Shown here: piece after piece, positions 49,062 through 62,009 of the stretch
How positions within the stretch are numbered: position 1 is the first letter of the stretch
Layout of the letters: each line of letters opens with the position of its first letter
Assembly: GCA_017399765.1 (NCBI GenBank)
Contig: JAFQBH010000020.1
Span: 47,299-111,298, forward strand
DNA: 64,000 nt
DNA from: Oscillospiraceae bacterium
GTDB lineage: Bacteria; Bacillota; Clostridia; Oscillospirales; Ruminococcaceae
Direction: 5' to 3'
Position numbers and translations under genes: made by a program
The notes under the pieces: generated by a model
What the model was told of the DNA's origin: nothing
The model's input: only the letters and a program-made list of their open reading frames with translations
The model's database searches: none

Positions 49062-50163
49062 AATCGTAATAAGTCTTTTTGCGCTTTTTCTTGCAATAAC
49101 ATATTGGAAAACCGTTTCCGGTTTTATCGGAATGGTGTTCGGCGCGGCGGCACCGCTTTTTATCGGCGCCGCAGTAGCTTATGTTGTCAACATACTTATG
49201 AGCTTTTATGAACGCAGATTTTTTGGAAAAACAAAAAACAAAAAACTGCTGAAAATAAAAAGACCGCTTTGCATGATAATCGCTTTCATAACCCTTGTTG
49301 CGGTTCTTGCCATTGTGGTCTGGCTTGTTCTGCCTCAATTTGTTTCCGCAATAATGCTTGTTGTGGATTATATCCCTGACGCAGTTGACTGGATCGTTGA
49401 ACAGCTCGAAAAACTCGAATATGTTCCGCAGGATATCATCGATATGCTTGTTTCAATCGATTGGAATTCCCAGATCGAAAAAATTATAAAAGCCGTAACT
49501 TCCGGCGTCGGAAACGTAATGGGAGTTGTTATCTCGACCGTTTCAACGGTTCTCGGCGGAATCGTAACCGCATTCCTGAGCCTTATTTTTGCAATTTATA
49601 TCCTTCTTGATAAGGAAAAACTCGAAAACCAGGCGGATAAAATCGCAAAAAAATATCTTAAACAAAGCTGGTATGAAAAGCTTCGCTATGTGCTTTATAC
49701 TTTCAGCGACAGCTTCCATAAATATATCGTCGGCCAATGTACCGAAGCGGTTATTCTCGGCGGACTTTGCGCCATAGGAATGGGAATACTCGGTCTTCCT
49801 TATGCAACGATGATTGGCGCGCTTGTTGCTTTCACAGCTCTTATTCCGGTTGCGGGCGCATTTATCGGCGGCGCAGTCGGTGCTTTTATGATTCTTATGG
49901 TAAACCCCATCCAGGCGCTTATTTTCATAGTATATCTTGTTGTTCTCCAGCAGCTTGAAGGAAATATCATCTATCCGAAGGTAGTCGGTTCCTCAATGGG
50001 TCTTCCGGCAATATGGGTTCTTGCGGCTGTAACCATAGGCGGCGGAGTAATGGGCGTTATGGGAATGCTCATCGGCGTTCCGATTGCCGCAACCGTTTAC
50101 CGCATAATCCGCAATGACGTCAACGGAAAAACCGAAGAGGAAATCAAAAAAGCGTTGGTTTGA
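49033..50163 (+). CDS. AI-2E family permease-like membrane protein
   Basis: This family (YdbI/YtvI/PerM) has six to eight helices and is reported to move small molecules or Na+/H+; the AI-2 label comes from one member. The sequence has the usual opening helix pair, a middle soluble segment (VEQLEKLEYVPQDIIDMLVSID), the family motif FHKYIVGQCTEAVILGGLC, and YPKVVGSSMGLPAIWVLAAVTIGG near the end. The start follows AAAGGAG. Length of 376 residues is typical. Substrate unknown. Confidence 0.87.
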   Translation: MKIEWKTCAKIVISLFALFLAITYWKTVSGFIGMVFGAAAPLFIGAAVAYVVNILMSFYERRFFGKTKNKKLLKIKRPLCMIIAFITLVAVLAIVVWLVLPQFVSAIMLVVDYIPDAVDWIVEQLEKLEYVPQDIIDMLVSIDWNSQIEKIIKAVTSGVGNVMGVVISTVSTVLGGIVTAFLSLIFAIYILLDKEKLENQADKIAKKYLKQSWYEKLRYVLYTFSDSFHKYIVGQCTEAVILGGLCAIGMGILGLPYATMIGALVAFTALIPVAGAFIGGAVGAFMILMVNPIQALIFIVYLVVLQQLEGNIIYPKVVGSSMGLPAIWVLAAVTIGGGVMGVMGMLIGVPIAATVYRIIRNDVNGKTEEEIKKALV

Positions 50164-50182
50164 TTAACTGAATTTTACAGTA

Positions 50183-50212
50183 GGGCGGGGGCTTTGCCCC
50201 CGCCGTTTTTTC
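50183..50212 (+). terminator. Terminator of the mutS2-ogt-permease operon
   Basis: GGGCGGGGGC/GCCCCCGCC stem followed by T6. Confidence 0.82.
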
Positions 50213-50224
50213 AATATAATAAAA

Positions 50225-50260
50225 AAACCTCCCGCAGATTTTCTGCGGGAGGTTTTTTTA
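50225..50260. terminator. Bidirectional terminator before the phosphofructokinase gene
   Basis: AACCTCCCGCAGA/TCTGCGGGAGGTT stem with T7. Confidence 0.83.
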
Positions 50261-50267
50261 TCTCAAC

Positions 50268-51527
50268 TTATTCGTTAACAGGTTCTGCGGGAATACGTTT
50301 GAGTCTTGCGTATTTGGGCATTCCGTGTTCATAAGGAGTTTCGATTTCGCCCTGGATAAGCGGAACAACATATTCGATAAATTCATCGGTAACGTTGTTG
50401 CCTTCTTCGTTGATCCATTCGCGCGGAACACATTTTTCTGCGTTCGCAACCTCTTTAAGATCAACAAGGATAGGTGTGCATTTGTAAATGCCGTATTTTG
50501 TGTCGCGGCGGAAAGCAACCATTTTTCCGGTTTCGCCGGAAACGGCGGCTTCAACAGCAAAAGCACCGGCCATTGCCGCTTCGTCACGGTCGGTTCTGGA
50601 ACCGGCGTGGCTTGCGCATCTCTGGAGAAGGGAAAGTTCGATTCCGCGGACTTTGGAACCGGTTTTTGCACGGATTATGTTGGACATGGTCGCAGCAAGG
50701 CCGCCAAGCTGGGAATGGCCGAATTCATCGGTGATGTTAAGATCATTGATTCCGTATTCGCTGATGAATTTTCCGTGTTTGTCTTTGATACCTTCGGAGA
50801 AAACAAGTACGATTCGTTTGTGGTGTCTATGGAATTCATCAAGATCCTTGAAGAACTGGTCCATATCAAAAGGAACTTCCGGAAGATATATAAAAGCGGG
50901 ACCTTCGCAGCAGATTTTGGAAAGTGCTGCTGCACCCGCAAGCCAGCCTGCGTGGCGTCCCATAACTTCGATTACAACGATTGCGTCACGGTCATAAACG
51001 TGAACGTCTTTTATAACTTCGGCAACGGAAAGAGCGATATATTTTGCGGAAGAACCGAAACCGGGGCAATGGTCAGTTCCGACAAGGTCGTTATCTATGG
51101 TCTTCGGAACGCCGATTATGCGGCATTCGTAATCCTGGGTCGCCATATATTCGGAAATTTTGTTGCAGGTATCCATGCTGTCGTTTCCGCCGTTATAGAA
51201 GAAATAACGGATGTCATATTTTTTGAAAATTTCGAGGATTCGTTTGTAATCGGTATCGTCCTCGCGGAAATCTTTGAGTTTATAGCGGCAGCTTCTTATA
51301 AGAGAAGCGGGGGTTGTGAGCATAAGTTCAAGGGTTTCTGCGTCTTCTTTGCCCATGTCGATAATGTTGTCATCAAGAACACCGCGGATTCCGTGCTGTG
51401 CGGCAAGAACTTTTGTAATGCATTTTTTTCCAAGCGCCGTTTTGATAACGCCGTATGCGCTGGAGTTGATAACTGCGGTAGGACCGCCGGATTGTCCGAT
51501 AAGACATGCGCCGATAAGTTCGCTCAT
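50268..51527 (-). CDS. pfp: 6-phosphofructokinase, probably pyrophosphate-dependent
   Basis: It phosphorylates fructose 6-phosphate in glycolysis. The sequence GGNDSMDTCNK near residue 96 has the bulky Asp after the glycines that favours PPi over ATP (ATP enzymes have GGDGS), and PKTIDNDLVGTDHCPGFG is the substrate-binding motif of the PPi group. MGRHAGWLAGAAALS and IVLVFSEG further support this. The ATG behind GGGGG gives 419 residues; 15 upstream residues of the longer reading lie in the leader. PPi dependence is inferred from these residues. Confidence 0.9.
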   Translation of the reverse strand: MSELIGACLIGQSGGPTAVINSSAYGVIKTALGKKCITKVLAAQHGIRGVLDDNIIDMGKEDAETLELMLTTPASLIRSCRYKLKDFREDDTDYKRILEIFKKYDIRYFFYNGGNDSMDTCNKISEYMATQDYECRIIGVPKTIDNDLVGTDHCPGFGSSAKYIALSVAEVIKDVHVYDRDAIVVIEVMGRHAGWLAGAAALSKICCEGPAFIYLPEVPFDMDQFFKDLDEFHRHHKRIVLVFSEGIKDKHGKFISEYGINDLNITDEFGHSQLGGLAATMSNIIRAKTGSKVRGIELSLLQRCASHAGSRTDRDEAAMAGAFAVEAAVSGETGKMVAFRRDTKYGIYKCTPILVDLKEVANAEKCVPREWINEEGNNVTDEFIEYVVPLIQGEIETPYEHGMPKYARLKRIPAEPVNE

Positions 51528-51617
51528 AAAAAAGCCCCCTGTTTTATGTAAAAAGTTTGTTAATTTCCACAATCTCAGTTTTGTTTAAAAACAGAACTTG
51601 TGTATATTAATAACATT

Positions 51618-51646
51618 ATTTTAACACATAATTTGTTAATCTTCAA
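51618..51646 (-). promoter_or_regulatory. Promoter of the phosphofructokinase gene
   Basis: On the minus strand TTGAAG and TAAAAT are separated by 17 bases. Confidence 0.65.
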
Positions 51647-51669
51647 TATAAAAGAAATACGAAAAATTG

Positions 51670-51697
51670 TTGAAAAACTTGGAATATCTGTTATACT
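51670..51697 (+). promoter_or_regulatory. Promoter of the membrane-anchored protein gene
   Basis: TTGAAA and TATACT are separated by 16 bases. It overlaps the first part of the longest reading frame, so the real start codon lies further on. Confidence 0.65.
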
Positions 51698-51729
51698 GTA
51701 TTAAGTATATGTTCAGAGGAGTGAAAAAT

Positions 51730-52248
51730 TTGACCTATAATCGTGAAAATAATATAAAATCATTTGCCGCGGCGATTATTCTTGTAATTGTAATTGCGGC
51801 TTTTGCTGCCGCAGGTTTTTTGATTTTCGGAGGAGAGGTTCCCGCCGAAGAAGACAGTTTCCCCTGGATAACTTCCGACCATGCGGCAAAGGGCGGAATG
51901 CTTGACGGAACTTTTTATGACGGAGAAAAAAATCCAGAAGGAAAACTTTCATATAAAATTGCGGGAGAAATTACCGTTGATGCCGATGAAGGAAAAGGCG
52001 ATTTTAAAATCGAAAATTCCGGAAAAAACACCTGCCTTATGAAAGTAAAAATCACCGTTGATGACGAAGTAATTTATCAGACAGGTTATCTTAAACCGAA
52101 CCAGCATATTGCAGAAGATTTCCTTGATAAAATTCCCGAAGTCGGAACTTATGAAGCAAAGGCATATTTTGAAGGCTTTGATCCTAATACAGAAGAATCC
52201 ATCGGTTCTTCGGAACCGACCGAAATAATAATAACCGTTTTGCAGTAA
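51730..52248 (+). CDS. Membrane-anchored hypothetical protein with Ig-like domain
   Basis: The 172-residue product has a short basic start, one helix (residues about 11-33) and an acidic outer domain of beta-rich character (KLSYKIAGEITVDADEGKGDFKIENSGKN). The end (TYEAKAYFEGFDPNTEESIGSSEPTEIIITVLQ) looks like a fibronectin/Ig-type fold. The TTG start is preferred because AGAGGAGTG lies eight bases upstream and the promoter excludes the earliest frame; an ATG at 51709 is an alternative. No function can be assigned. Confidence 0.75.
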   Translation: MTYNRENNIKSFAAAIILVIVIAAFAAAGFLIFGGEVPAEEDSFPWITSDHAAKGGMLDGTFYDGEKNPEGKLSYKIAGEITVDADEGKGDFKIENSGKNTCLMKVKITVDDEVIYQTGYLKPNQHIAEDFLDKIPEVGTYEAKAYFEGFDPNTEESIGSSEPTEIIITVLQ

Positions 52249-52252
52249 GTAA

Positions 52253-52288
52253 AAAAATCCGTGCTCAAAATTGAGCACGGATTTTTTT
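52253..52288. terminator. Bidirectional terminator
   Basis: AATCCGTGCTCAA/TTGAGCACGGATT stem with T7. Confidence 0.84.
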
Positions 52289-52299
52289 ATGCGGAAAAT

Positions 52300-52680
52300 T
52301 TAAAAAATGTTCCTGAAAAGGGGCCGTTCGCAATCCCAAATTTCATCAAGAAGAATTTTGCACCGGCTGATTTCTGAAGCGAGTTCGCCTTTTTCTTCGA
52401 ATTTTGCAAGGGGAACGAACCGCGAAACTGAAAAAGTGGTCTGGTCAAGAAGATCGTGGCGCACAATAAGTGAGAGAATGTGATGTTCAGAAAGCCAGTA
52501 TTCGGTGAATTTTTCGCATTCCAATGCGGTTTTTTCAAAATCCTCATTTGCGGTCAGCATATATAGTTCATCAAGTTTTAAGGTTGCTTCGTTTTTGATT
52601 TTTGTAATAGTATCAAGACAAAAACAGTTGAAAATAATCAAAAAAACAAGAAGTGCCGAAGCAAAAACGATTCGTTTCAT
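52300..52680 (-). CDS. DUF4363 family protein
   Basis: The 126-residue product has one N-terminal helix (IVFASALLVFLIIFNCFCL) and a helical outer part with ECEKFTEYWLSEHHILSLIVRHD near residue 55, the pattern I associate with DUF4363 proteins of Firmicutes. It overlaps the upstream DUF421 gene by four bases, a pairing that is common for this family. Its role is unknown; it may be an accessory subunit of the DUF421 protein. Confidence 0.78.
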   Translation of the reverse strand: MKRIVFASALLVFLIIFNCFCLDTITKIKNEATLKLDELYMLTANEDFEKTALECEKFTEYWLSEHHILSLIVRHDLLDQTTFSVSRFVPLAKFEEKGELASEISRCKILLDEIWDCERPLFRNIF

Positions 52681-53357
52681 TTTTTTCTTTCCTTTCTGAC
52701 AATGTGATATTTTGCAAATGGGTCACAGGTCATTAAAAAAACTTCTTTCACCGAAAGATTTTCTTTTTCGAGCACGCCGGAAAGCCATTTTTCTGTAAGG
52801 TTACATTCTTTAAGCACTTCTGAGCACAGGACTCCGTCACTTATGAGCACCATCGGCGGAGCGGGACATGGCTTTTCTTTTCCGCAAACATTTTTGGGAG
52901 TAAGGGGCTGAGCTTCCGGTTTTGGGAAAACCGTAAGCTGACCATTCGTTTCAACAATTGCCCATGAAACTTCTTCAATATCAAAAAAACCGTTTATCCT
53001 AAGCTGGCTCATAAGGTCTTCTATGGAAAAGCGAAGTTCGCGCATGCTTTCCTGGTCAATGTTTCCGTTTCGTATTATCGGAACAGGGCTGCCCGTAACA
53101 ATTACACGGGCTTTTTCATTTTTTAATGTTATAAAAGACAGAATAACTTCTGCGCTCATAAGCGTTATTATCGGAACAACCGCTCCGGAAAGGGGAATGT
53201 TTGTGTCTTCAATGGAAAGGGTGGCAATATTGGAAATCAAAATTGCGATAACAAATTCAGAAGGCTGAAGTTCGCCGAGCTGACGTTTGCCCATAATTCG
53301 AAGGCAAACGATTATTACCAGGTAAATTATAAGGGTTCGGAAAAACACAACAAACAT
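52677..53357 (-). CDS. DUF421 (YetF-like) membrane protein
   Basis: YetF-family proteins have two or three N-terminal helices and a cytoplasmic or spore-facing C-terminal domain; in Bacillus some members act in spore germination or envelope stability. Seen are the family motifs RIMGKRQLGELQPSEFVIAILISNIAT (residues 20-46), PIIRNGNIDQESMRELRFSIEDLMSQLR, and FDIEEVSWAIVETNGQLTVFPK. Length 226. A DUF4363 gene follows in the same operon. The start follows AGGAGGGCG. Confidence 0.88.
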   Translation of the reverse strand: MFVVFFRTLIIYLVIIVCLRIMGKRQLGELQPSEFVIAILISNIATLSIEDTNIPLSGAVVPIITLMSAEVILSFITLKNEKARVIVTGSPVPIIRNGNIDQESMRELRFSIEDLMSQLRINGFFDIEEVSWAIVETNGQLTVFPKPEAQPLTPKNVCGKEKPCPAPPMVLISDGVLCSEVLKECNLTEKWLSGVLEKENLSVKEVFLMTCDPFAKYHIVRKERKK

Positions 53358-53415
53358 CTTTCGCCCTCCTTTTTTATTTATTATTTACCGAATTGTTAAA
53401 AATAGCAGTTTATTA

Positions 53416-53444
53416 TTGATAAAAAAACAGAATCTTGCTATAAT
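53416..53444 (+). promoter_or_regulatory. Promoter of the lepB-mnmA operon
   Basis: TTGATA and a perfect TATAAT are separated by 17 bases, 45 bases upstream of lepB. Confidence 0.75.
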
Positions 53445-53489
53445 AATTTAATTGACAAAATAAAATCAAAACCGTTTACGGAGGAATAT

Positions 53490-54077
53490 ATGGAAGAATT
53501 ATTGTTTACAGATGAAGTGACCGAAGAACCTGCAAACGAAGAAGCCGTTCCGGAAAAAAAGAAAAAAAGCCTTAAGGAAGAAATTCTTGATTGGGCAAAA
53601 ACACTTCTTTTTTACTGCGTTCTGCCCCTTGTGATTTTTCAGACTTTCTGTTTTATGGCAAGCGTTCCGACAGGTTCAATGGAAACCACAATTCCGGTCG
53701 GAGCACAGGTCGTTACGACAAGAGTTTTCAACAAAGAGAATATAAACCGCGGCGATATTGTTGTTTTCGACAGCGAAGAACTTGAAATCATACTTATAAA
53801 ACGCTGCATAGGTCTTCCGGGAGATTCCGTTTATTTTGACGGAACCGGCGACGTTTATGTTAACGGAGAACTTCTTGATGAACCTTATGTAAGCAGCTGG
53901 TCGGATTTTGAAGGAAGTTTTGAAGTTCCGGAAAATCACTATTTCTTTGCAGGCGATAACAGAAAAGGTTCTCTTGACGCAAGATATTGGGATGAACCTT
54001 ATATCCATGAAGATCATATCAAGGGAAAAGCAAGATTTATTCTTTTCCCGTTCAGCGATTTCGGAATGCTTGAATAA
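53490..54077 (+). CDS. lepB: Signal peptidase I
   Basis: Signal peptidase I removes signal peptides from exported proteins at the outer face of the membrane. One N-terminal helix (LLFYCVLPLVIFQTFCFM) follows a charged cytoplasmic tail. The catalytic Ser is in VPTGSMETTIPVG (near residue 63), the Lys in LIKRCIGLPGD (near 102), and the C-terminal GDNRKGSLDARYW is conserved. The length of 195 residues fits the Gram-positive type. The start follows CGGAGG. It heads an operon with a microprotein gene and mnmA. Confidence 0.95.
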   Translation: MEELLFTDEVTEEPANEEAVPEKKKKSLKEEILDWAKTLLFYCVLPLVIFQTFCFMASVPTGSMETTIPVGAQVVTTRVFNKENINRGDIVVFDSEELEIILIKRCIGLPGDSVYFDGTGDVYVNGELLDEPYVSSWSDFEGSFEVPENHYFFAGDNRKGSLDARYWDEPYIHEDHIKGKARFILFPFSDFGMLE

Positions 54078-54093
54078 TTTCGGAGGTTAAAAA

Positions 54094-54192
54094 ATGCAGA
54101 ACAAACTTTTCGTAAGAATCATGGTAATTATTCTTATCATAGCAATGATAGTTCCTTCCTTTGCTTTTGCCCTTGCGTGGATGATCGGATGA
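54094..54192 (+). CDS. 32-residue membrane microprotein between lepB and mnmA
   Basis: A short reading frame starts at an ATG seven bases after a strong CGGAGG. It encodes MQNKLFVR, a hydrophobic stretch of about 20 residues rich in Ile, Val and Ala, and the end AWMIG. It would be a single-helix membrane protein, or a signal-like peptide. The stop overlaps the mnmA start in the form ATGA, and mnmA has no strong binding site of its own, so translation of this frame probably feeds ribosomes to mnmA. It may be related to small DUF4044-like proteins of Firmicutes, which I could not check. Confidence 0.72.
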   Translation: MQNKLFVRIMVIILIIAMIVPSFAFALAWMIG

Positions 54193-55199
54193 AGGTAATG
54201 GTTGGGCTCAGCGGCGGAGTTGACAGTGCGGCCGCAGCATATCTTTTAAAAGAACAGGGTTACGAGGTTGCTGGGGCGACCTTCCGCCTTTTTGATGATT
54301 GGGACAAAGCAAAGGACGCAAAAGCCGTTGCGGATTTTCTCGGAATCCCTCATTATATCTTCGATTTCCGCGAGATTTTCAAAAAGGAAGTACTCGATAA
54401 TTTCACCGAAGAATATAAAAAGGGAAGAACCCCGAACCCATGCGTAAGATGCAACAAATTCATTAAATTTCCGGCTTTTTTCGAGGAAGCGCAAAAACTC
54501 GGCTATGACCTTATTTCCACCGGTCATTATGCAAGAACCGACGGAAACAATATCTTCCGGGCAAAAAACCTTGCAAAAGACCAGAGTTATATGATGTATA
54601 ACATAGATAAGGAACTTATTCCTCATCTTCGTTTTCCTCTTGCGGATTTATCCAAAGACGAAATCCGCGCAATTGCGGAAAAAGCGGGAATCCCCGTTGC
54701 TAATAAGCCGGATTCCCAGGATATCTGCTTTATTCCGGACGGAGATACCCAGGGTTATATCGAACGGGTAATCGGCGAAATGCCCCATGGAAAATTTGTA
54801 GATGAATGCGGAAAATGCCTCGGCGAACATAAAGGCATCTGCCGCTATACCATAGGGCAGAGAAAAGGTCTCGGGCTTTCTCTTCCGGCGCCGCTTTATG
54901 TCGGAAAAATCGACCCGGAAGAAAACAAAGTTGTTCTCGTTGAAAACGAATCCCTTTTCAAAAAGCGCGTTATTGTCGATAATTTCCATTGGATAAACGG
55001 TGCACCGGATATGCCTGTCGCGGTAACCTGCAAAATCCGCTATGCCCATAATCCCGCTCCTGCTCTTGCAAGCACCTATTTCCGCGATGACAGAGCGCTC
55101 ATTTTGTTCGACGAACCCCAGAGAGCGGTGACCCCGGGACAGTCCGCTGTTATTTATTCCGGCGAAAAACTCCTCGGCGGCGGAGTTATCATAGGTTAA
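54189..55199 (+). CDS. mnmA: tRNA 2-thiouridine synthase MnmA
   Basis: MnmA activates U34 of tRNA-Lys/Glu/Gln with ATP and inserts sulfur. The PP-loop MVGLSGGVDSAAAAYLL is at the start, the two active cysteines are in NPCVRCNKFIKF (near residue 80) and SQDICFIPDGD (near 180), and TIGQRKGLG is conserved. The ATG overlapping the microprotein stop is chosen; 336 residues is slightly short but complete. A TTG/ATG 12 bases upstream lies inside the microprotein frame. Confidence 0.94.
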   Translation: MKVMVGLSGGVDSAAAAYLLKEQGYEVAGATFRLFDDWDKAKDAKAVADFLGIPHYIFDFREIFKKEVLDNFTEEYKKGRTPNPCVRCNKFIKFPAFFEEAQKLGYDLISTGHYARTDGNNIFRAKNLAKDQSYMMYNIDKELIPHLRFPLADLSKDEIRAIAEKAGIPVANKPDSQDICFIPDGDTQGYIERVIGEMPHGKFVDECGKCLGEHKGICRYTIGQRKGLGLSLPAPLYVGKIDPEENKVVLVENESLFKKRVIVDNFHWINGAPDMPVAVTCKIRYAHNPAPALASTYFRDDRALILFDEPQRAVTPGQSAVIYSGEKLLGGGVIIG

Positions 55200-55219
55200 T
55201 TTTAACAAAGGGTTTAGAA

Positions 55220-55546
55220 ATGATTTCAATTACAGTAAAAAAAGAAGAATGGGAAGAAATAGAAAAACTTATCCCGGAAATTTTTCCGGAGTTACATTTT
55301 GAACTTGTGGTTGAAGATATTAGTCTTAAAATACTTGGACTTGCAGAATCAGTGCCGTGCGTTGTTTCGATTGATACGGATTTTTCCGGTTATGAGAGTA
55401 TTTTAGATGAACTTTCTCAGCTTGAAACGGATGCATATCTTAATGACGATTATGAGGACTCACCCGAATATTATCGTTATGAAAGATATAAGAATCTCTG
55501 GCCGATTCTTTTTAATGCGATTAACAATCATCGAGCTGGTAATTGA
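55220..55546 (+). CDS. Hypothetical acidic protein
   Basis: The 108-residue product (MISITVKKEEWEEIEKLIPEIFPELHFELVVED at the start) is acidic and helical in look, without signal or membrane segment. The C-terminus EYYRYERYKNLWPILFNAINNHRAGN is aromatic. The binding site (AGGGTTTAG) is weak, 20 bases after mnmA. I do not recognise it. The last codons overlap the promoter of the following leader, an arrangement that suggests compact packing. Confidence 0.65.
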   Translation: MISITVKKEEWEEIEKLIPEIFPELHFELVVEDISLKILGLAESVPCVVSIDTDFSGYESILDELSQLETDAYLNDDYEDSPEYYRYERYKNLWPILFNAINNHRAGN

Positions 55547-55571
55547 CAATCTCCATGCACTTGTGTATAAT
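55543..55571 (+). promoter_or_regulatory. Perfect consensus promoter ahead of the leader peptide
   Basis: TTGACA and TATAAT are separated by exactly 17 bases, the best sigma-A match in the window. It drives a leader of roughly 110 bases up to a terminator. Confidence 0.9.
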
Positions 55572-55601
55572 ATTCATATTATATTTTTGAAAGGTCAAAA
55601 A

Positions 55602-55640
55602 ATGGACGACGCAGACATACGAAGTATTATTATAAATTGA
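55602..55640 (+). CDS. Putative 12-residue leader peptide MDDADIRSIIIN
   Basis: A short frame follows GAAAGG by seven bases and encodes MDDADIRSIIIN. The stop is seven bases ahead of an intrinsic terminator hairpin. The layout is that of a transcription attenuator. The first residues are acidic (Asp-Asp-Ala-Asp). In E. coli, acidic/proline-rich N-termini such as that of MgtL make ribosomes fall off when Mg2+ is low. Three consecutive Ile codons (ATT ATT ATA) are a second possible sensing point. Whether the peptide is made is untested; the regulatory role is an inference. Confidence 0.6.
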   Translation: MDDADIRSIIIN

Positions 55641-55647
55641 TTTTCGG

Positions 55648-55688
55648 AGCATAGCCTGGGCAAAAATTGCCTCGGGCTGTGCTTTTTT
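55648..55688 (+). terminator. Intrinsic terminator or attenuator upstream of the CNNM/CorC gene
   Basis: AGCATAGCC-TGGGCAA and TTGCC-TCGGGCTGTGCT pair as a long imperfect stem followed by T6. It lies between the leader peptide and the start of the transporter gene, so it would end most transcripts unless prevented. Confidence 0.8.
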
Positions 55689-55729
55689 GCGTTAACTATA
55701 AATTTTCGAAAGGTTGTATCAATTAAAAA

Positions 55730-56980
55730 ATGAACAATATCGGCACAATAATCGCCATGGGCGTTCTTGTAATGATGTCGGCATATTTTTCCGCAACGGA
55801 AACCGCTTTCAACAGTCTTAACGTTACAAAAGTAAAAATATCGGCAGAAAAAGGCGACAAAGGAGCAATCCTTATGCTCCGGCTTGTTGAAGATTATAAC
55901 CGCCTTCTTACAACGATCCTTGTCGGAAACAACATAGTAAACATCGCCCTTTCCGCAATGGCAACTGTTTTCTTTATCGAACTTGTCGGCGATGCGGGCG
56001 CAACTCTTTCCACCGCGGTAATCACCGTTGTTGTTCTCATTTTCGGTGAAATTACTCCGAAAAGCGTTGCAAAGGAATCTCCCGAAGCTTTTGCAAGATT
56101 TTCCGCACCGATAATCAATTTCCTTGCGGTAATCCTTACCCCCATAAACTATCTTTTCGGTCTTTGGAAAAAGCTTATTTCAATCATTTTTAAATGCGGC
56201 GACGAACAGGCTGTTACCGAAGAAGAACTTCTTTCCATGGTCGATGAAGTCGAGCACAGCGGCGGAATCGGAGAACAGGAAGGCGAACTTATCCGAAACG
56301 CAATGGAACTCAACGAAAAAGACTGCGCCGATATCGCAACTCCCCGTGTTGATATCGAAGCGGTAGGAAAAGACTGGACAAAGGAAGAAGTTGCGGAAGT
56401 TTTTGTGGAAACCGGATATTCCCGTCTGCCGGTTTATGTGGACAGCCTTGATAACATAATCGGAATTATCCACCGCACCGATTTCTATAACAATTACGAA
56501 ATGGAAAACATCGCCGATACAATGCTCACAAAACCGGTTTTTGTTCCTAAAACCATGAAAATCGGCGCACTTTTAAAACTTCTTCAGAAAAACAAATGCC
56601 ACATGGCTGTTGTAACCGATGAATACGGCGGCACTTACGGAATTGTAACAATGGAAGATATCCTTGAAGAACTTGTCGGCGAAATCTGGGACGAACACGA
56701 CGAAGTTGAAGAGGATATCAGCGAAAACAAAGGCGTTTATACCGTTTCCGGAAGTATGGAACCGGAAGAACTTTTTGAAGAGCTTGAAATCGATATTGAG
56801 GAAGTTCCCTATGCAACCTTGAGCGGCTGGATCATGGACGAACTCAACAAAGTTCCGGAAGTGGGCGATACCTTTGAAAACAGCGGCTACAGATTCACTG
56901 TCGAAACCGTTGACGGAATGAGGGTGGATACCGCCCTTGTCGAAAAACTTGAACCGCTTTCCGAAGCAGAGGAAGAATAA
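55730..56980 (+). CDS. CNNM/CorC-type transporter with CBS pair (hemolysin C family)
   Basis: Family members (MpfA, YhdP, CorC/HlyC) export Mg2+ or Co2+. The N-terminal CNNM (DUF21) domain has four hydrophobic segments with the opening SAYFSATETAFNSLN and the VGNNIVNIALSAMA pore region. CBS domains follow (about 200-330; ATPRVDIEAVGKDWTKEE and MAVVTDEYGGTYGIVTMEDILEELVGEIWDE), and a C-terminal CorC/HlyC FAD-like domain ends the 416-residue protein. GAAAGG lies 16 bases before the ATG, longer than usual. An attenuator-like leader precedes it. Confidence 0.9.
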   Translation: MNNIGTIIAMGVLVMMSAYFSATETAFNSLNVTKVKISAEKGDKGAILMLRLVEDYNRLLTTILVGNNIVNIALSAMATVFFIELVGDAGATLSTAVITVVVLIFGEITPKSVAKESPEAFARFSAPIINFLAVILTPINYLFGLWKKLISIIFKCGDEQAVTEEELLSMVDEVEHSGGIGEQEGELIRNAMELNEKDCADIATPRVDIEAVGKDWTKEEVAEVFVETGYSRLPVYVDSLDNIIGIIHRTDFYNNYEMENIADTMLTKPVFVPKTMKIGALLKLLQKNKCHMAVVTDEYGGTYGIVTMEDILEELVGEIWDEHDEVEEDISENKGVYTVSGSMEPEELFEELEIDIEEVPYATLSGWIMDELNKVPEVGDTFENSGYRFTVETVDGMRVDTALVEKLEPLSEAEEE

Positions 56981-57421
56981 ATGGAACTTGTTATCAAAAA
57001 ATTCGATGAACTTACCGTAAACGAGCTTTATGATATTTTAAAGCTCCGGGTCAACGTTTTTGTTGTGGAACAGGAATGTCCGTATCCGGAAATCGATGAT
57101 AAGGACCAGAACGCTTATCACATCTGGCTCCGGGACGAGGAAGGCATTGCCGCCTATCTCCGTGTTCTCGATAAAGGCGTTTCCTTCGAAGATGCCGCAG
57201 TCGGAAGAGTTATTTCCGCAAGGCGCAGAAAAGGTTTTGGAACAATCGTGCTCAAAGAGGGAATCCGCCTTGCGAAGGAAAAATTCGGCGCGGATAAAAT
57301 TACAATCGAAGCCCAAGTCTATGCAAGAAAATTCTATGAAAACGTTGGTTTCAGGCAGGTTTCGGAAGAATTTCTTGAGGACGGAATTCCGCATATTCTT
57401 ATGACTCTTGAAGTTGAATAA
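56981..57421 (+). CDS. ElaA-like GNAT acetyltransferase
   Basis: This 146-residue GNAT has the ElaA/YjdJ start (LTVNELYDILKLRVNVFVVEQECPYPEIDDKDQNAYHIW), where the VFVVEQECPYPEID segment is specific to this group. It also has an acetyl-CoA loop (VISARRRKGFGTIVLKEGI) and a C-terminal IEAQVYARKFYENVGF. The ATG directly follows the upstream stop with no gap, so it is coupled to the transporter gene. Substrate unknown. Confidence 0.87.
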   Translation: MELVIKKFDELTVNELYDILKLRVNVFVVEQECPYPEIDDKDQNAYHIWLRDEEGIAAYLRVLDKGVSFEDAAVGRVISARRRKGFGTIVLKEGIRLAKEKFGADKITIEAQVYARKFYENVGFRQVSEEFLEDGIPHILMTLEVE

Positions 57422-57428
57422 AAAAAGA

Positions 57429-57461
57429 AATCCGCATATCGCAGTGATATGCGGATTTTTT
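57429..57461 (+). terminator. Terminator after the ElaA-like gene
   Basis: AATCCGCATATC-GCAGT-GATATGCGGATT stem with T-run. Confidence 0.85.
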
Positions 57462-57553
57462 AAAATCAACAAAATTAAAAAAACATGGTGTTCATTCTGA
57501 CCGAATCGGAATTTATAATGATGTTGTAAATTTTGAAAAGGAGGTTCATAAAA

Positions 57554-57904
57554 ATGAACACTGATAAAATCTGGGCGGAAGCTATTGCGAAAGAATATGC
57601 CCCAAAAGATGATTCCAAAGTAACAGCACTTAAAAAACTTGATAAAAAAGCAAAACTTCCCGCAACGGTTTTTGCCTATTCCTTCGGAATAGTTTCTTCA
57701 CTTGTTGCAGGTCTCGGAATGTGTCTTGCAATGCAGGTAATAGGCGAGGGAACAGCTATGCTCGTTTTGGGAATTATAATCGGAATAATCGGTTTTTCCT
57801 GCTGCGGAATAAACTATCCGATATATAAAAAACTTCTTGAAAAAGGTAAGAAAAAATATGCTTTTGAAATCGTTGAACTTGCTAAAGAAATAAGCGGAGA
57901 CTAA
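57554..57904 (+). CDS. Small membrane protein with two helices
   Basis: The 116-residue product has a charged N-terminus (DKIWAEAIAKEYAPKDDSKVTALKKLDKKAK), two hydrophobic helices (about residues 37-58 and 65-83), a loop with YPIYKKLLEKGKKKYAFEI, and an acidic end. Proteins with the same plan are annotated in clostridia as dihydropteridine reductase-like, but I see no nucleotide-binding motif to support enzymatic activity. The ATG follows AAAGGAGG. The TetR gene begins 24 bases after, so the regulator may control it. Confidence 0.75.
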   Translation: MNTDKIWAEAIAKEYAPKDDSKVTALKKLDKKAKLPATVFAYSFGIVSSLVAGLGMCLAMQVIGEGTAMLVLGIIIGIIGFSCCGINYPIYKKLLEKGKKKYAFEIVELAKEISGD

Positions 57905-57928
57905 TTTTTTTTGAAAGGGAATGATCGG

Positions 57929-58519
57929 TTGAATAAAAACGAAAGCAAATATTTCAATACTGCCGTAAAAATGAATATGGCGCTTATAGAAATTTTAAAA
58001 ACAAAACCTTTTGAATTTATTACAGTAAGCGAAATTTGCAAAAAAGCCGGGGTCAACCGTTCAACTTTTTATCTCCATTACGAAAATACAAAGGATCTTC
58101 TGGAAGAAACGGTAAAGAAAATGTCCGGCGATTTTGTTTTGTATTTTATTCCGGACGGAAAGATTTCGCCGATTGATTTTGATAATGTTCCAAGGGAAAA
58201 ACTGTTTTTTATCACCGAAAAATATCTGATGCCGTATCTTTCATACTTTAAGGAAAACAGAAAAATTTTTCTGACACTTCTTGAAAACAGAGAGCTTTTT
58301 GGTTTTGAAGAGATCTATAAAAAACTTTATGATAACATCTTCAACCCGATTCTTAACAGATTCAGATATCCGGAAGGCGAAAGAAAATATGTAATGGCGT
58401 TTTATCTGAACGGAATTAATTCAATCATAACGGAATGGATTAAAGATGATTGCGCTAAACCGGAAGAAGAAATAATAAAAATAATAAACGATTGCATTTT
58501 CGGGCTTAATAATTATTAA
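57929..58519 (+). CDS. TetR/AcrR family regulator
   Basis: The first 60 residues are a TetR helix-turn-helix: FEFITVSEICKKAGVNRSTFYLHYENTKDLLEE. The C-terminal ligand domain (about 140 residues) carries YFKENRKIFLTLLENRELFGFEEIYKKLYD and NGINSIITEWI, resembling the TetR_C_33/DUF-type of gut Firmicutes. The TTG behind AAAGGGA is chosen (196 residues). It follows the two-helix protein gene. Ligand and targets are unknown. Confidence 0.87.
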   Translation: MNKNESKYFNTAVKMNMALIEILKTKPFEFITVSEICKKAGVNRSTFYLHYENTKDLLEETVKKMSGDFVLYFIPDGKISPIDFDNVPREKLFFITEKYLMPYLSYFKENRKIFLTLLENRELFGFEEIYKKLYDNIFNPILNRFRYPEGERKYVMAFYLNGINSIITEWIKDDCAKPEEEIIKIINDCIFGLNNY

Positions 58520-58520
58520 A

Positions 58521-58550
58521 AAAATCCGCAGATTTTCTGCGGATTTTTTT
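58521..58550 (+). terminator. Terminator after the TetR gene
   Basis: AATCCGCAGA-TTT-TCTGCGGATT stem with T7. Confidence 0.83.
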
Positions 58551-58619
58551 GTTTTGGTGCAACAAAATCGGGTTTTTATGCTACTATTATTTCAGAAGGA
58601 TAAAAAGGAGAATGATTTT

Positions 58620-59321
58620 ATGAAAAAAATTATTTCTGTTTTTCTTGCCGTTGCGATGTTGCTTTCTTTTTCCGCCTGCGGAGGGAAAGATGAAATTGTT
58701 GTTCCGGAGGAAGAAATGATCGAATCAGAATCCGATATAAAAATCGAAACCGAACCGGAGCAGACGGAAAGCATTGAAAAAATTCCGGAAAGCTATCTCA
58801 AAATTGAAAACGGAAAACTTTCCGGAATGATACACCCAATGGTTCCTGTTTCTCCGGAAGGAGAAAATGTTTTTGAAAATGAACTTGTTGAAGTTTCAAT
58901 GTCTGTTCCGGAAGGCTAGGAACCGGGAACCCTTGAGGAAAAAGGCGAAATTTACGGCATAACTTTTAAACTGCCCTGGGATAATTACCATTATGCAAGT
59001 CTTTCTGTCTATAAAGATATCGGAAAGACTTATGACGAGTTTCTTGCAAATCATTCCCTCTGGGTTGGAATAAACGAACATACCTACCATGAAGCAGAAG
59101 GGAATTTTTTAAATGGAAGTTATATTCATTTTGACTATCCGGCATTTGATAAATATGACCATGAAGAAGATGCAGTTCCGGTTTACGGAAGATTTTATCA
59201 GCTCCAGTTTGACGGATATGTAGCAGATGTGGGTGTTTATATCAGAATAGATTCCGAAGAAAACACGCTTATTGATGAAAAAATCTGTGATGAATTTATT
59301 TCTTCAATAATAATCGGCTGA
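58620..59321 (+). pseudogene. Lipoprotein gene interrupted by an in-frame TAG
   Basis: An exported lipoprotein (MKKIISVFLAVAMLLSFSACGG, lipobox SAC) runs to TAG at 58917-58919. In the same frame coding-style sequence continues for another 133 codons (EPGTLEEKGEIYGITFKLPWDNYHYASL...) to TGA at 59319, with a globular look. The whole would be 233 residues. RBS is AAAAGGAG. Either a nonsense mutation made a pseudogene, or the amber codon is read through. I do not recognise the protein family. The frame has no other stop or shift, so the damage, if real, is recent. Confidence 0.75.
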
Positions 59322-59342
59322 AATTGTTAACAAAAAGTTTTC

Positions 59343-59371
59343 TTGTAAGTTTTTGCGGGTAATGGTAAACT
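59343..59371 (+). promoter_or_regulatory. Promoter of the TIGR00266 gene
   Basis: TTGTAA and TAAACT are separated by 17 bases. Confidence 0.55.
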
Positions 59372-59403
59372 TTAGTTGAAAAATATAAAAAGGAGGCGTT
59401 TTT

Positions 59404-60081
59404 ATGCGTTATGAAATTGAAGGAGGCTCTCTTCCCGCATTGGTAATCCAGCTTGAAGCCGGCGAAGGTCTTGTAAGTGAATCCGGCGGAAGAACTTGGA
59501 TAAAAGGCCCGATCACAACCGACGTAAAAGCCGACGGCGGTCTTGGCGGAAGCATTGGAAGAATGTTTTCCGGCGAAAGTCTTTTCCTCAACCACTATAA
59601 AGCCAAAGGAGCGGGTGAAATCGCCTTTACTTCCTCTTTCCCGGGAAGAATAATTTCACGCCAGCTTGCACCGGGCGAAAGCGTAATTTGCCAGAAACGC
59701 GCTTTTCTTTGCGCAACCGAAGGTACCCAGCTTTCAATTTTCTTCCGTAAAAAAGTTGGAGCGGGTCTTTTCGGCGGCGAAGGTTTTATTATGCAAAAGG
59801 TCACAGGTCCCGGCCTTGCTTTCTTCGAAATCGACGGTTACTGCAAGGAATATAATCTTGCGGCGGGCGAAGAACTTGTCTGCGACACCGGCGTTGTTGC
59901 AATGATGGAGGAAAGCTGCAAAATGGACGTAAGAATGGTCGGAAGCGTTAAAAATGCCCTTTTCGGCGGCGAAGGTCTTGTTGATACCGTTATAACCGGT
60001 CCCGGAAGAGTTATGCTCCAGACAATGCCGATTTATAAGGTCGCAAGCGCGATCCAGCCCTTCATAGTTCAGGGAAAATAA
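59404..60081 (+). CDS. TIGR00266/AIM24 family protein
   Basis: This family is a double beta-roll protein of unknown biochemical role, sometimes linked to membrane or redox stress. The 225-residue product has repeated motifs: YEIEGGSLPALVIQLEAGEGLVSESG at the start, GGLGGSIGRMFSGESLFLNHYKAKGAGEIAF, LFGGEGFIMQKVTGPGLAF, and ALFGGEGLVDTVITGPGRVMLQTM near the end. It has no membrane segment. The ATG follows AAAGGAGG. A bidirectional terminator separates it from pcp. Confidence 0.85.
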   Translation: MRYEIEGGSLPALVIQLEAGEGLVSESGGRTWIKGPITTDVKADGGLGGSIGRMFSGESLFLNHYKAKGAGEIAFTSSFPGRIISRQLAPGESVICQKRAFLCATEGTQLSIFFRKKVGAGLFGGEGFIMQKVTGPGLAFFEIDGYCKEYNLAAGEELVCDTGVVAMMEESCKMDVRMVGSVKNALFGGEGLVDTVITGPGRVMLQTMPIYKVASAIQPFIVQGK

Positions 60082-60088
60082 AACATAG

Positions 60089-60125
60089 CAAAAACTCCCT
60101 GCCGTTTCCGGCAGGGAGTTTTTTA
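60089..60125. terminator. Bidirectional terminator
   Basis: AAAACTCCCTGCC-GTTTC-GGCAGGGAGTTTT stem. Confidence 0.86.
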
Positions 60126-60707
60126 TATCGCTTCGATTGCAATTTCAAGGGCTTTCGCGATTGTTTCAAGCGGAAGACTGGGCTTATCGTTTGTCTGTTC
60201 CGGAATGAACGGAACGTGTATAAAACAGGCTTTTGTTTCCGTTCCTTTATAATGATGAAGAACGTGATAAATAAGGTCGTTGCAAACGTAAGTTCCTGCG
60301 GAATAGGAAACGGAGCAGGGGATATTCTCTTCGGAAATTGCAAAAGTCATTTTTCTCACCGGAAGTGTTGAAAAATATGCGTTTTCGCCACCTTCGACAC
60401 AGGGAACATCCTTCGGCTGTTTTCCTTCGTTATCCGGAATTGAAGCAAAGCGAAGGTTTATGGTGACCATTTCCGGAGTAACACCGGTTCTTCCTCCCGC
60501 CTGACCGACGCAGATTATTGCGTCGGGGCTTATTTCTTCCGCTTTTTTGATAACTGTTTCCGCCGCTTTTTCAAAAACAACGGGAATTTCAATTTTTGTG
60601 AGTTCAAAATCACCTATCACATTCGGAAGAAGTTTAACAGCTTCCCAGGAAGGATTGATTTTTTCTCCGCCGAAAGGTTCAAAACCGGTTATCAGAAGTT
60701 TTTTCAT
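60123..60707 (-). CDS. pcp: Pyroglutamyl-peptidase I
   Basis: It removes N-terminal pyroglutamate from peptides in the cytoplasm. The C15 peptidase features are KKLLITGFEPFGGEKINPSWEAVKLLP at the start, AIICVGQAGGRTGVTPEMVTINLRFA with the catalytic Glu (near 75-80), SYSAGTYVCNDLIYHVLHH with the catalytic Cys (near 140), and CFIHVPFIPEQ with the His (near 165). The ATG behind GGCGGTGA is chosen; the GTG nine bases upstream is part of that site. Length is 194 residues. Confidence 0.93.
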   Translation of the reverse strand: MKKLLITGFEPFGGEKINPSWEAVKLLPNVIGDFELTKIEIPVVFEKAAETVIKKAEEISPDAIICVGQAGGRTGVTPEMVTINLRFASIPDNEGKQPKDVPCVEGGENAYFSTLPVRKMTFAISEENIPCSVSYSAGTYVCNDLIYHVLHHYKGTETKACFIHVPFIPEQTNDKPSLPLETIAKALEIAIEAI

Positions 60708-60761
60708 AAAAATCACCGCCGAAAAATTTATGGAAATATTTTATCATAAAACGTTGACGGT

Positions 60762-61532
60762 TTAAAGCTGTTTTTTAATTTTTTGCAAAGCACCTTTTTC
60801 CAATCTGGAAACCTGAGCCTGGCTTATGCCGATTTGGGAAGCAACGTCCATTTGGGTCCTTCCGTCAAAAAAACGCATTGCGAGAATCCGTTTTTCCCTT
60901 TTGGAAAGGCTTTTTACCGCTTCCTTAAGCGCAATTTCTTCTAGCCAGCCGGCATCGGAATTTTTGTCGCTCAGCTGGTCCATAACAAAAATCGTGTCGC
61001 CGGAATCGGAATAAACCGGCTCATAAAGCGAAACCGGTTCAACAATGGATTCAAGAGCGACAACAACCTGGCTTTTTGGAATTTCCATGATTTTTGCTAT
61101 TTCATCAACAAGCGGTTCGCGCCCATGCTCATTGATAAAATCTTCCTTGATCTGCATCGCCCGATAAGCTATATCGCGCATTGAACGGCTTACCCGAACC
61201 GCGCCGGAATCCCGCAAAAACCGCCTTATCTCGCCGATTATCATAGGCACACCATAGGTGGAAAAACGCACGTCAAGGCTTGGGTCAAAGTTGTCGATTG
61301 CCTTAATAAGCCCTATGCAGCCCACCTGAAAGAGGTCATCGGGTGGTTCGCCTCGGCCGGAAAACTTTTGAACAACGCTTAAAACAAGCCGCAAATTTCC
61401 GTTTATCATTTTTTCTCTTGCATTTTTATCGCCGTTTTTTGCAAGTTTCAAAAGTTCCGTCTTTTCTTTTTCTGTGAGCACCGGAAGTTTTGCCGTGTTG
61501 ATTCCGCAAATTTCTACTTTACCGTAATACAT
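60762..61532 (-). CDS. sigG: Sporulation sigma factor SigG
   Basis: Sigma-G directs late forespore transcription. The SigG-specific N-terminus (KVEICGINTAKLPVLTEKEKTELL) separates it from SigF. Region 2 contains NLRLVLSVVQKF, DDLFQVGCIGLIKAIDNFDPSLDVRFSTYGVPMI; region 3 EIRRFLRDSGAVRVSRSMRD; region 4 TQMDVASQIGISQAQVSRLEKGAL. Length 256. The start follows GGGGA. The sigE gene, usually adjacent to sigG, is not in this window; a ylmC-type gene is divergent. Confidence 0.95.
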   Translation of the reverse strand: MYYGKVEICGINTAKLPVLTEKEKTELLKLAKNGDKNAREKMINGNLRLVLSVVQKFSGRGEPPDDLFQVGCIGLIKAIDNFDPSLDVRFSTYGVPMIIGEIRRFLRDSGAVRVSRSMRDIAYRAMQIKEDFINEHGREPLVDEIAKIMEIPKSQVVVALESIVEPVSLYEPVYSDSGDTIFVMDQLSDKNSDAGWLEEIALKEAVKSLSKREKRILAMRFFDGRTQMDVASQIGISQAQVSRLEKGALQKIKKQL

Positions 61533-61578
61533 AAAAATTCCCCGTTCAAAAATGTTTTGGCAAGGTTGATTTTTGACT

Positions 61579-61637
61579 TTTGAGCACGAATATATTCATT
61601 TGAGCACGGAATAAAAAATGGTAAAATTTTGAGCACG
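61579..61637. repeat. Three direct repeats TTTGAGCACG in the sigG/ylmC intergenic region
   Basis: TTTGAGCACG occurs at 61579, 61599 and 61628, spaced 20 and 29 bases, close to two and three helical turns. They lie in the 160-base divergent promoter region, as operator repeats might. Confidence 0.55.
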
Positions 61638-61693
61638 GACAAACAAAAAACCAAATAAAACAGCATATATTTTTTCAATGGGGGAGTGATAAT

Positions 61694-61996
61694 ATGCTTG
61701 CAGCTTTTGGGGAAATTTGCGAAAAAGAAATTATAAACACTTTGGACGGAAGCTCTTTCGGTTTTGCCGGCGACATCCTTTTCGATACCGAAACACGAAA
61801 AATAACCGCAATTATTGTGAAAGGCAAGCCAAAATTTTTCGGAGTTTTCGGAAGGGAAGAAGACCTTTCGATAATGTGGGATAAAATTGAAACCATAGGA
61901 AAAGATATAATTCTTGTGAAAACCGAGGAATATGGCAGAATTCACAATAAAAAAGAAAATATTTTCCAAAAAATTTTTAATATTTTCTTTTATTAA
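61694..61996 (+). CDS. YlmC/YmxH-type sporulation protein (PRC-barrel)
   Basis: The 100-residue product begins MLAAFGEICEKEIINTLDGSSFGFAGDILFDTETRKITAIIVKGKPKFFG, the pattern of the YlmC/YmxH family found next to sigE-sigG in spore-formers. It folds as a PRC-barrel, a small beta domain that binds RNA or proteins. The C-terminus KKENIFQKIFNIFFY is amphipathic. The ATG follows GGGGGAGTG. It is divergent from sigG, so the shared intergenic region may be regulated in the forespore. Confidence 0.88.
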   Translation: MLAAFGEICEKEIINTLDGSSFGFAGDILFDTETRKITAIIVKGKPKFFGVFGREEDLSIMWDKIETIGKDIILVKTEEYGRIHNKKENIFQKIFNIFFY

Positions 61997-62009
61997 ATGG
62001 CAAAAACGG

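Follow-up and report, generated by a model that had tools for sequence, protein, structure and literature searches.

Ribosome-mediated attenuators of the trp type combine a leader frame, a terminator and the coupling of transcription to translation; the ribosome stalls at a scarce codon, or in other cases is stalled by a drug. MgtL, the short leader of mgtA in E. coli and Salmonella, carries an early acidic EPDP motif, and the Mg2+-dependent dissociation of the ribosome on these early acidic residues senses Mg2+ for the control of its transport (PMC11282234). MgtL stands before an importer gene and acts through Rho-dependent termination, and ribosome drop-off turns the gene on. In mgtQ, the acidic residues 2 and 5 lower the translation of the leader itself and affect the downstream Mg2+ transporter, also an importer, by acting on mgtB translation via alternative stem-loops (PMC8092293). 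The efflux-linked genes corC (ybeX) and mgpA of E. coli and Salmonella are induced by high Mg2+; the N-terminus of CorC carries an IRD sequence within the coding sequence, and the YoaL leader overlaps the sequence ahead of mgpA (PMC12421838). The account given there calls the mechanism unclear, and no leader with an intrinsic terminator was found described in it. Apart from this related discussion of CorC and YoaL (PMC12421838), no prior description of such a leader in Clostridia was found in the open-access literature, preprints aside.

The window, the whole 64,000-nucleotide stretch of an Oscillospiraceae genome that was analysed, contains a leader that would work like MgtL yet is not itself an MgtL leader. 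As in MgtL, a short frame with early acidic residues, preceded by a Shine-Dalgarno (SD) sequence, stands upstream of a Mg2+-transport-type gene. Unlike in MgtL, this gene is of the exporter-type CNNM/CorC family and the terminator is intrinsic, in place of an importer and a Rho terminator, and judged from the geometry, drop-off should turn the gene off. The early acidic residues ahead of a transporter gene are shared with mgtQ, which differs in its target and has the opposite sign. The expected sign is that of corC and mgpA, whose induction by high Mg2+ shows that such a sign occurs in enterobacteria through other layouts. With the trp-type attenuators the locus shares the leader frame, the terminator and the coupling, whereas the proposed signal is a ribosome that falls off an acidic peptide rather than one that stalls. 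Very probably the leader is a genuine and conserved attenuator that is gated by translation. That it senses Mg2+ through ribosome instability and keeps a likely exporter off when Mg2+ is scarce is the main reading, to which we give a probability of roughly 0.6.

In this model, the acidic start of the peptide, elsewhere often acidic plus proline, would destabilise the elongating ribosome, more so at low Mg2+. At low Mg2+ the ribosome would be lost, leaving bare RNA behind the RNA polymerase, the terminator would fold and no exporter transcript would be made. At ample Mg2+ the ribosome would translate as far as the stop codon, located within or past the hairpin or a short way ahead of it, so that the terminator would be hindered and the exporter made. 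Mg2+ as the signal and ribosome drop-off on the leader are what we infer; the sequence-level predictions of this inverted-MgtL model, proposed in the earlier note, were supported. If the model is true, it would explain how ample Mg2+ can turn on a Mg2+ exporter where no riboswitch is present. Mg2+ sensing by drop-off was found described for enterobacterial importer leaders, and its widespread use with reversed output in Clostridia would show the principle to be a general one.

The promoter at 55543-55571 on the + strand had been called perfect, and it matched the consensus at 12/12 positions with TTGACA at 55543-55548, TATAAT at 55566-55571 and a spacer of 17 nt. It was the sole 12/12 match among 31 promoter-like sites in the 12 kb scanned (50000-62000). 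Between mnmA and the promoter lies a 108-codon frame at 55220-55546 that overlaps the -35 box and had no Pfam match; judged by eye, the apparent end of mnmA is followed directly by the promoter in several relatives, L005 and L007 among them. The leader frame MDDADIRSIIIN of 12 codons extends over 55602-55640 (+ strand) with its stop included (ATG 55602-55604, TGA 55638-55640), and its SD, GAAAGG, was read from the sequence at 55589-55594 (+ strand). The intrinsic terminator follows at 55646-55688 on the + strand, with the hairpin at 55646-55685 and the T6 run at 55683-55688. Folding gave the hairpin -27.5 kcal/mol (z -5.7), and none of 200 shuffled sequences was equally stable; the leader taken whole had a folding z of -4.9. 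The G+C-rich core starts 7 nt past the leader stop, the distance previously given for the T6 hairpin, and the full hairpin 5 nt past it.

The gene at 55730-56980 (+ strand) had been placed in the CNNM/CorC family, and it carries the domains of such transporters (MpfA, CorB): Pfam CNNM (3.9e-48), CBS and CorC_HlyC were all over the cut-off. The nearest solved chain was 7m1t (E 6e-55), with 7m1u, 7cff and 7cfg as further solved relatives; 7m1t and 7m1u bear the database name 'Hemolysin, contains CBS domains' and are presumably archaeal CorB. Judged by its family, the product likely exports Mg2+, the nearest characterised CNNM/CorB relatives being described as Mg2+ efflux transporters (PMC12421838). 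An SD-like GAAAGG was read at 55708-55713 (+ strand). Its distance of 16 nt to the ATG is unusually long. The GAAAGG is invariant in the 14 close genus copies, in which the stretch GTTGTATC together with it (55708-55732) is invariant or nearly so.

The occurrence of such leaders outside the genus was surveyed with CNNM homologues collected at E <= 1e-90, which were present in 129 of 394 genomes from the order and 91 of 391 genomes from the class. The 20 lowest-scoring loci among the 130 matches of the order search were left out (two of them were already included otherwise), as were the 15 lowest-scoring among 81 same-class matches of the class search. A script scored SD-preceded frames of 8-60 codons and terminators in the sequence ahead of each gene, to a maximum of 420 nt. 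Further open frames from the same sequences, 150 codons or longer, served as controls, a mixture of genuine genes and possible false reading frames; their start codons were chosen by SD and codon preference, those of the CNNM genes by alignment. From 1574 de-duplicated genes, 404 with less than 60 nt upstream were excluded, which reduced the CNNM genes from 197 to 179, with 167 outside the genus.

The acidity criteria were fixed only once the first leaders were known. By these criteria, 70/167 non-genus CNNM genes versus 23/991 controls had an SD frame whose start is acidic or acidic plus proline (Fisher 2e-45, ignoring phylogeny), and 45/167 versus 5/991 had such a frame with a terminator. 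When at least three acidic residues at positions 2-8 and a terminator were demanded, 33/167 CNNM genes and 0/991 controls remained, and an earlier, smaller locus set with the genus included gave 28/100 versus 0/781 by the strictest criterion. Leaving residue 2 free and keeping the terminator resulted in 49/167 versus 13/991. Among genes with 250 nt or more of sequence ahead of them, the acidic-start frame preceded 50 of the 77 non-genus CNNM genes and 15 of the 320 controls. SD frames of any kind were also commoner before CNNM genes (116/167 versus 445/991). When only the frame with the best SD was taken for every gene, acidic residues filled 197 of 812 positions from residue 2 to residue 8 (24%) for CNNM, versus 187 of 3115 (6%) in the controls. 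Counted by taxon with the window's genus included, 82 of 178 genomes carried the frame, 57 of them together with a terminator; among genera the count was 48 of 101, and among the families examined 23 of 31. The recurrence check proposed for Clostridia thus turned out positive, with acidic-start frames and terminators before CNNM genes across the class. By script, the frame was absent at 97/167 non-genus CNNM genes, which speaks against the model; a homologue with 53% identity (G028) is among the CNNM genes without it.

This distribution bears on the question of which signal a translation-gated attenuator would read. A signal other than Mg2+, either general ribosome fitness (ABC-F helpers, antibiotics) or polyamines, appears rather unlikely to us. 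In its favour, ABC-F factors of E. coli and B. subtilis help ribosomes over acidic and Asp-Pro motifs (PMC11282234, PMC11381351), and PaeA, a CorC-domain protein, exports polyamines (PMC12421838). Against such signals speak the concentration of acidic leaders before CNNM genes among the genes compared and the Mg2+ efflux ascribed to the nearest characterised CNNM/CorB relatives (PMC12421838). In B. subtilis, poly-Asp and Asp-Pro motifs are described to stall ribosomes, with ABC-F factors helping (PMC11381351), which makes an effect of acidic peptides in Firmicutes plausible; those motifs are long and internal.

The leaders came in two styles. One is rich in Asp and Ser (MDSDDGDYPANTE..., MDGDSSDDNT..., MDDGSDSDST...), and the other is acidic plus proline (MDEPPP..., MDIPPLCHN..., MEQPP..., MSDPDPAGRL...) and resembles the EPDP motif of MgtL. 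Asp accounted for 33.9% of residues 2-8 in the 70 leaders, which were selected for acidity, versus 2.4% in control frames. Both Asp and both Glu codons were used (GAC 115, GAT 51, GAA 18, GAG 11). Eighty named loci were scanned separately and are included in no count. Hungatella hathewayi WAL-18680 has the leader MPDNAPEDAAPYND... with a terminator of -25.4 kcal/mol, Firmicutes bacterium CAG:176 has MDTDSGDHPG... with one of -23.9, and in Pseudoflavonifractor sp. 524-17 no terminator was scored past the frame MDEPPLQF.... An acidic frame, METDSDSDENRR..., also stands before the CNNM gene of Erysipelotrichaceae bacterium UBA4808 (L289), with no clear terminator; we take this group to lie outside Clostridia. 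If the model holds, these dozens of natural leaders would be material for working out what kind of peptide start makes ribosomes unstable.

Leader and control frames were compared for where their stop codon falls with respect to the terminator. None of the 45 non-genus acidic-start frames with a terminator stopped more than 12 nt ahead of the hairpin, versus 50 of 152 control frames. In a listing of 44 acidic-start frames, the stop fell beyond the hairpin in 31, inside it in 7 and at most 12 nt before it in 6; 6 of the 31 leaders with a stop beyond the hairpin depend on weak hairpins (-9.2 to -12.0 kcal/mol). The 12 genus copies listed for stop position all end at most 12 nt before the hairpin. 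The leader frame is therefore so positioned that its translation can act on an intrinsic terminator ahead of the gene. In all 45 frames a ribosome that completes the peptide would come to lie over, within or beyond the terminator, and completed translation would hinder termination. These positions agree with the earlier proposal that completed translation means read-through. A weak point of the model is the window copy. With a ribosome at its leader stop, covering the RNA to about 55650 by the footprint length of a ribosome, the hairpin would lose the stem base beside the T-run and keep the rest, i.e. -19.9 of the -27.5 kcal/mol, and this modelled incomplete disruption would count against gating there. 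An alternative antiterminator helix was considered and rejected, because leader pieces lacking the 3' arm of the terminator gave only weak folds (-5.4 to -10.2 kcal/mol).

Within the genus, the leader DNA gave a single strong match per genome in 14 of 15 genomes (E <= 2e-31), with the next-best match anywhere in the same search at E 0.004; its single copy ruled out a repeat element. All 14 matches sit immediately upstream of the CNNM gene. The promoter is conserved together with the leader, TATAAT being present in 14/14 close copies and TTGACA in all 13 whose contig extends there, and the SD core AAAGG is invariant. Conservation of the acidic frame in close relatives had been set beforehand as one test on which the proposal could fail, and it passed. 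The frame was intact with codons 1-5 invariant in 14/14 copies, i.e. in 14 of the 15 genus genomes. The amino acid varies at codons 6, 7, 9, 10 and 11: codon 6 encodes either Ile or Thr, codon 7 has become Pro in one copy, and codon 10 encodes Ile, Leu, Phe, Met or Lys; in G005, codons 9 and 11 differ as well. The fifteenth genome, G011, has a divergent acidic-proline leader, MDDGDPGG (MDDGDPGGCREDRDFEA); by eye, its stop falls in the 5' arm of a hairpin that is followed by T6.

The same alignment was examined for constraint on the RNA. The base of the terminator stem is nearly invariant; two apical pairs had changes on both sides that keep the pairing, and several sequences break apical pairs. 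RNAalifold also placed an invariant helix between 55608-55615 (leader codons 3-5) and the end of the T-run with the following GCGTT, from about 55685. This helix and the five first codons, invariant at every nucleotide in the 14 copies, are what would be expected if the leader RNA bound a ligand or a protein and the short frame were incidental, an explanation that we consider improbable. The covariation term was +0.47, slightly unfavourable, and no Rfam family was found in the window at gathering score, which removed a known RNA family as a candidate. Being invariant, the helix is neither supported nor excluded by covariation. Overall, pN (0.080) exceeds pS (0.057) in the genus, driven by codons 6-11; with the acidic-end codons identical at every base, constraint on RNA and on peptide is indistinguishable there. 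Between genera the leaders have the acidic start in common, not the sequence. Summed over eight non-genus groups of two or three leaders, pS was 0.23 and pN 0.05. The MSDPDP trio supplies 17 of the 29.5 synonymous differences in this comparison, the MDSDDGD trio has zero synonymous changes and the MDEPPP pair nearly equal rates. The codon differences outside the genus thus favour selection on the peptide and argue against an RNA regulator.

The search of 55400-55800 returned one chance-level Rfam hit (E 0.2) on the opposite strand. The M-box riboswitch (RF00380) was not found in the window at gathering score nor in 55400-55800 at E <= 1. It was absent from the window's genome and present in 1 of about 20-21 relatives searched, the divergent G011 (L307, G011:C14:19684-19848); the other 12 genus genomes searched were without it.

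A plain terminator of the upstream unit, or a leaky unregulated leader with an acidic frame by chance, is very unlikely. Terminator-like sites are indeed abundant, with 32 seen versus 15.7 expected in the 12 kb and at least one in 287/991 control upstream regions, so that the hairpin by itself proves little. The conserved consensus promoter, however, separates the upstream genes from the hairpin, and the enrichment of acidic frames over the control genes would not be explained. Amino-acid attenuation on the three Ile codons of the window copy, suggested in the earlier note as an alternative sensing point, has a negligible probability and was dropped, since the variable codons 6, 7 and 9-11 leave these Ile codons no conserved feature in the genus and no run of Ile occurs in the leaders from elsewhere.

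One group of leaders, MSDPDPAG... (L032, L033, L040, L233), had no terminator by script (L032, L033) or by eye. In the MSDPDP leaders the late codons of the frame are predicted to fold against the region with the exporter's SD, so that translation to the end would free this SD. The folding suggests that in this branch the exporter's SD region, and not a terminator, may be the target, with the same sign.

Acidic residues were also seen at the start of the exporter-type proteins themselves. Residue 2 was acidic in 33/70 CNNM proteins with a leader, 81/112 without a leader and 144/1377 control genes, a comparison uncontrolled for phylogeny in which some genes counted as without a leader had too little upstream sequence. 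These numbers are suggestive of a complementary role of the leader and an acidic exporter N-terminus; the N-terminus may instead reflect membrane topology. Only tentatively, and as a possibility that we hold to be doubtful, ribosome instability on acidic peptides could be a general riboswitch-free Mg2+ sensor for exporters in Clostridia, moving between the leader, where it would gate a terminator or in one branch an SD, and the coding N-terminus.

A second CNNM paralogue (L308-L320; G000:C8:22897-24180 and 12 other genus copies) had no leader by eye. Its coding N-terminus reads MDDPGSP or MDDPGST in 13/13 genus copies, an acidic-plus-proline start within an exporter-type gene, comparable to what has been described for CorC of E. 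coli. Among genomes outside the genus, G015 has MNPEGP.
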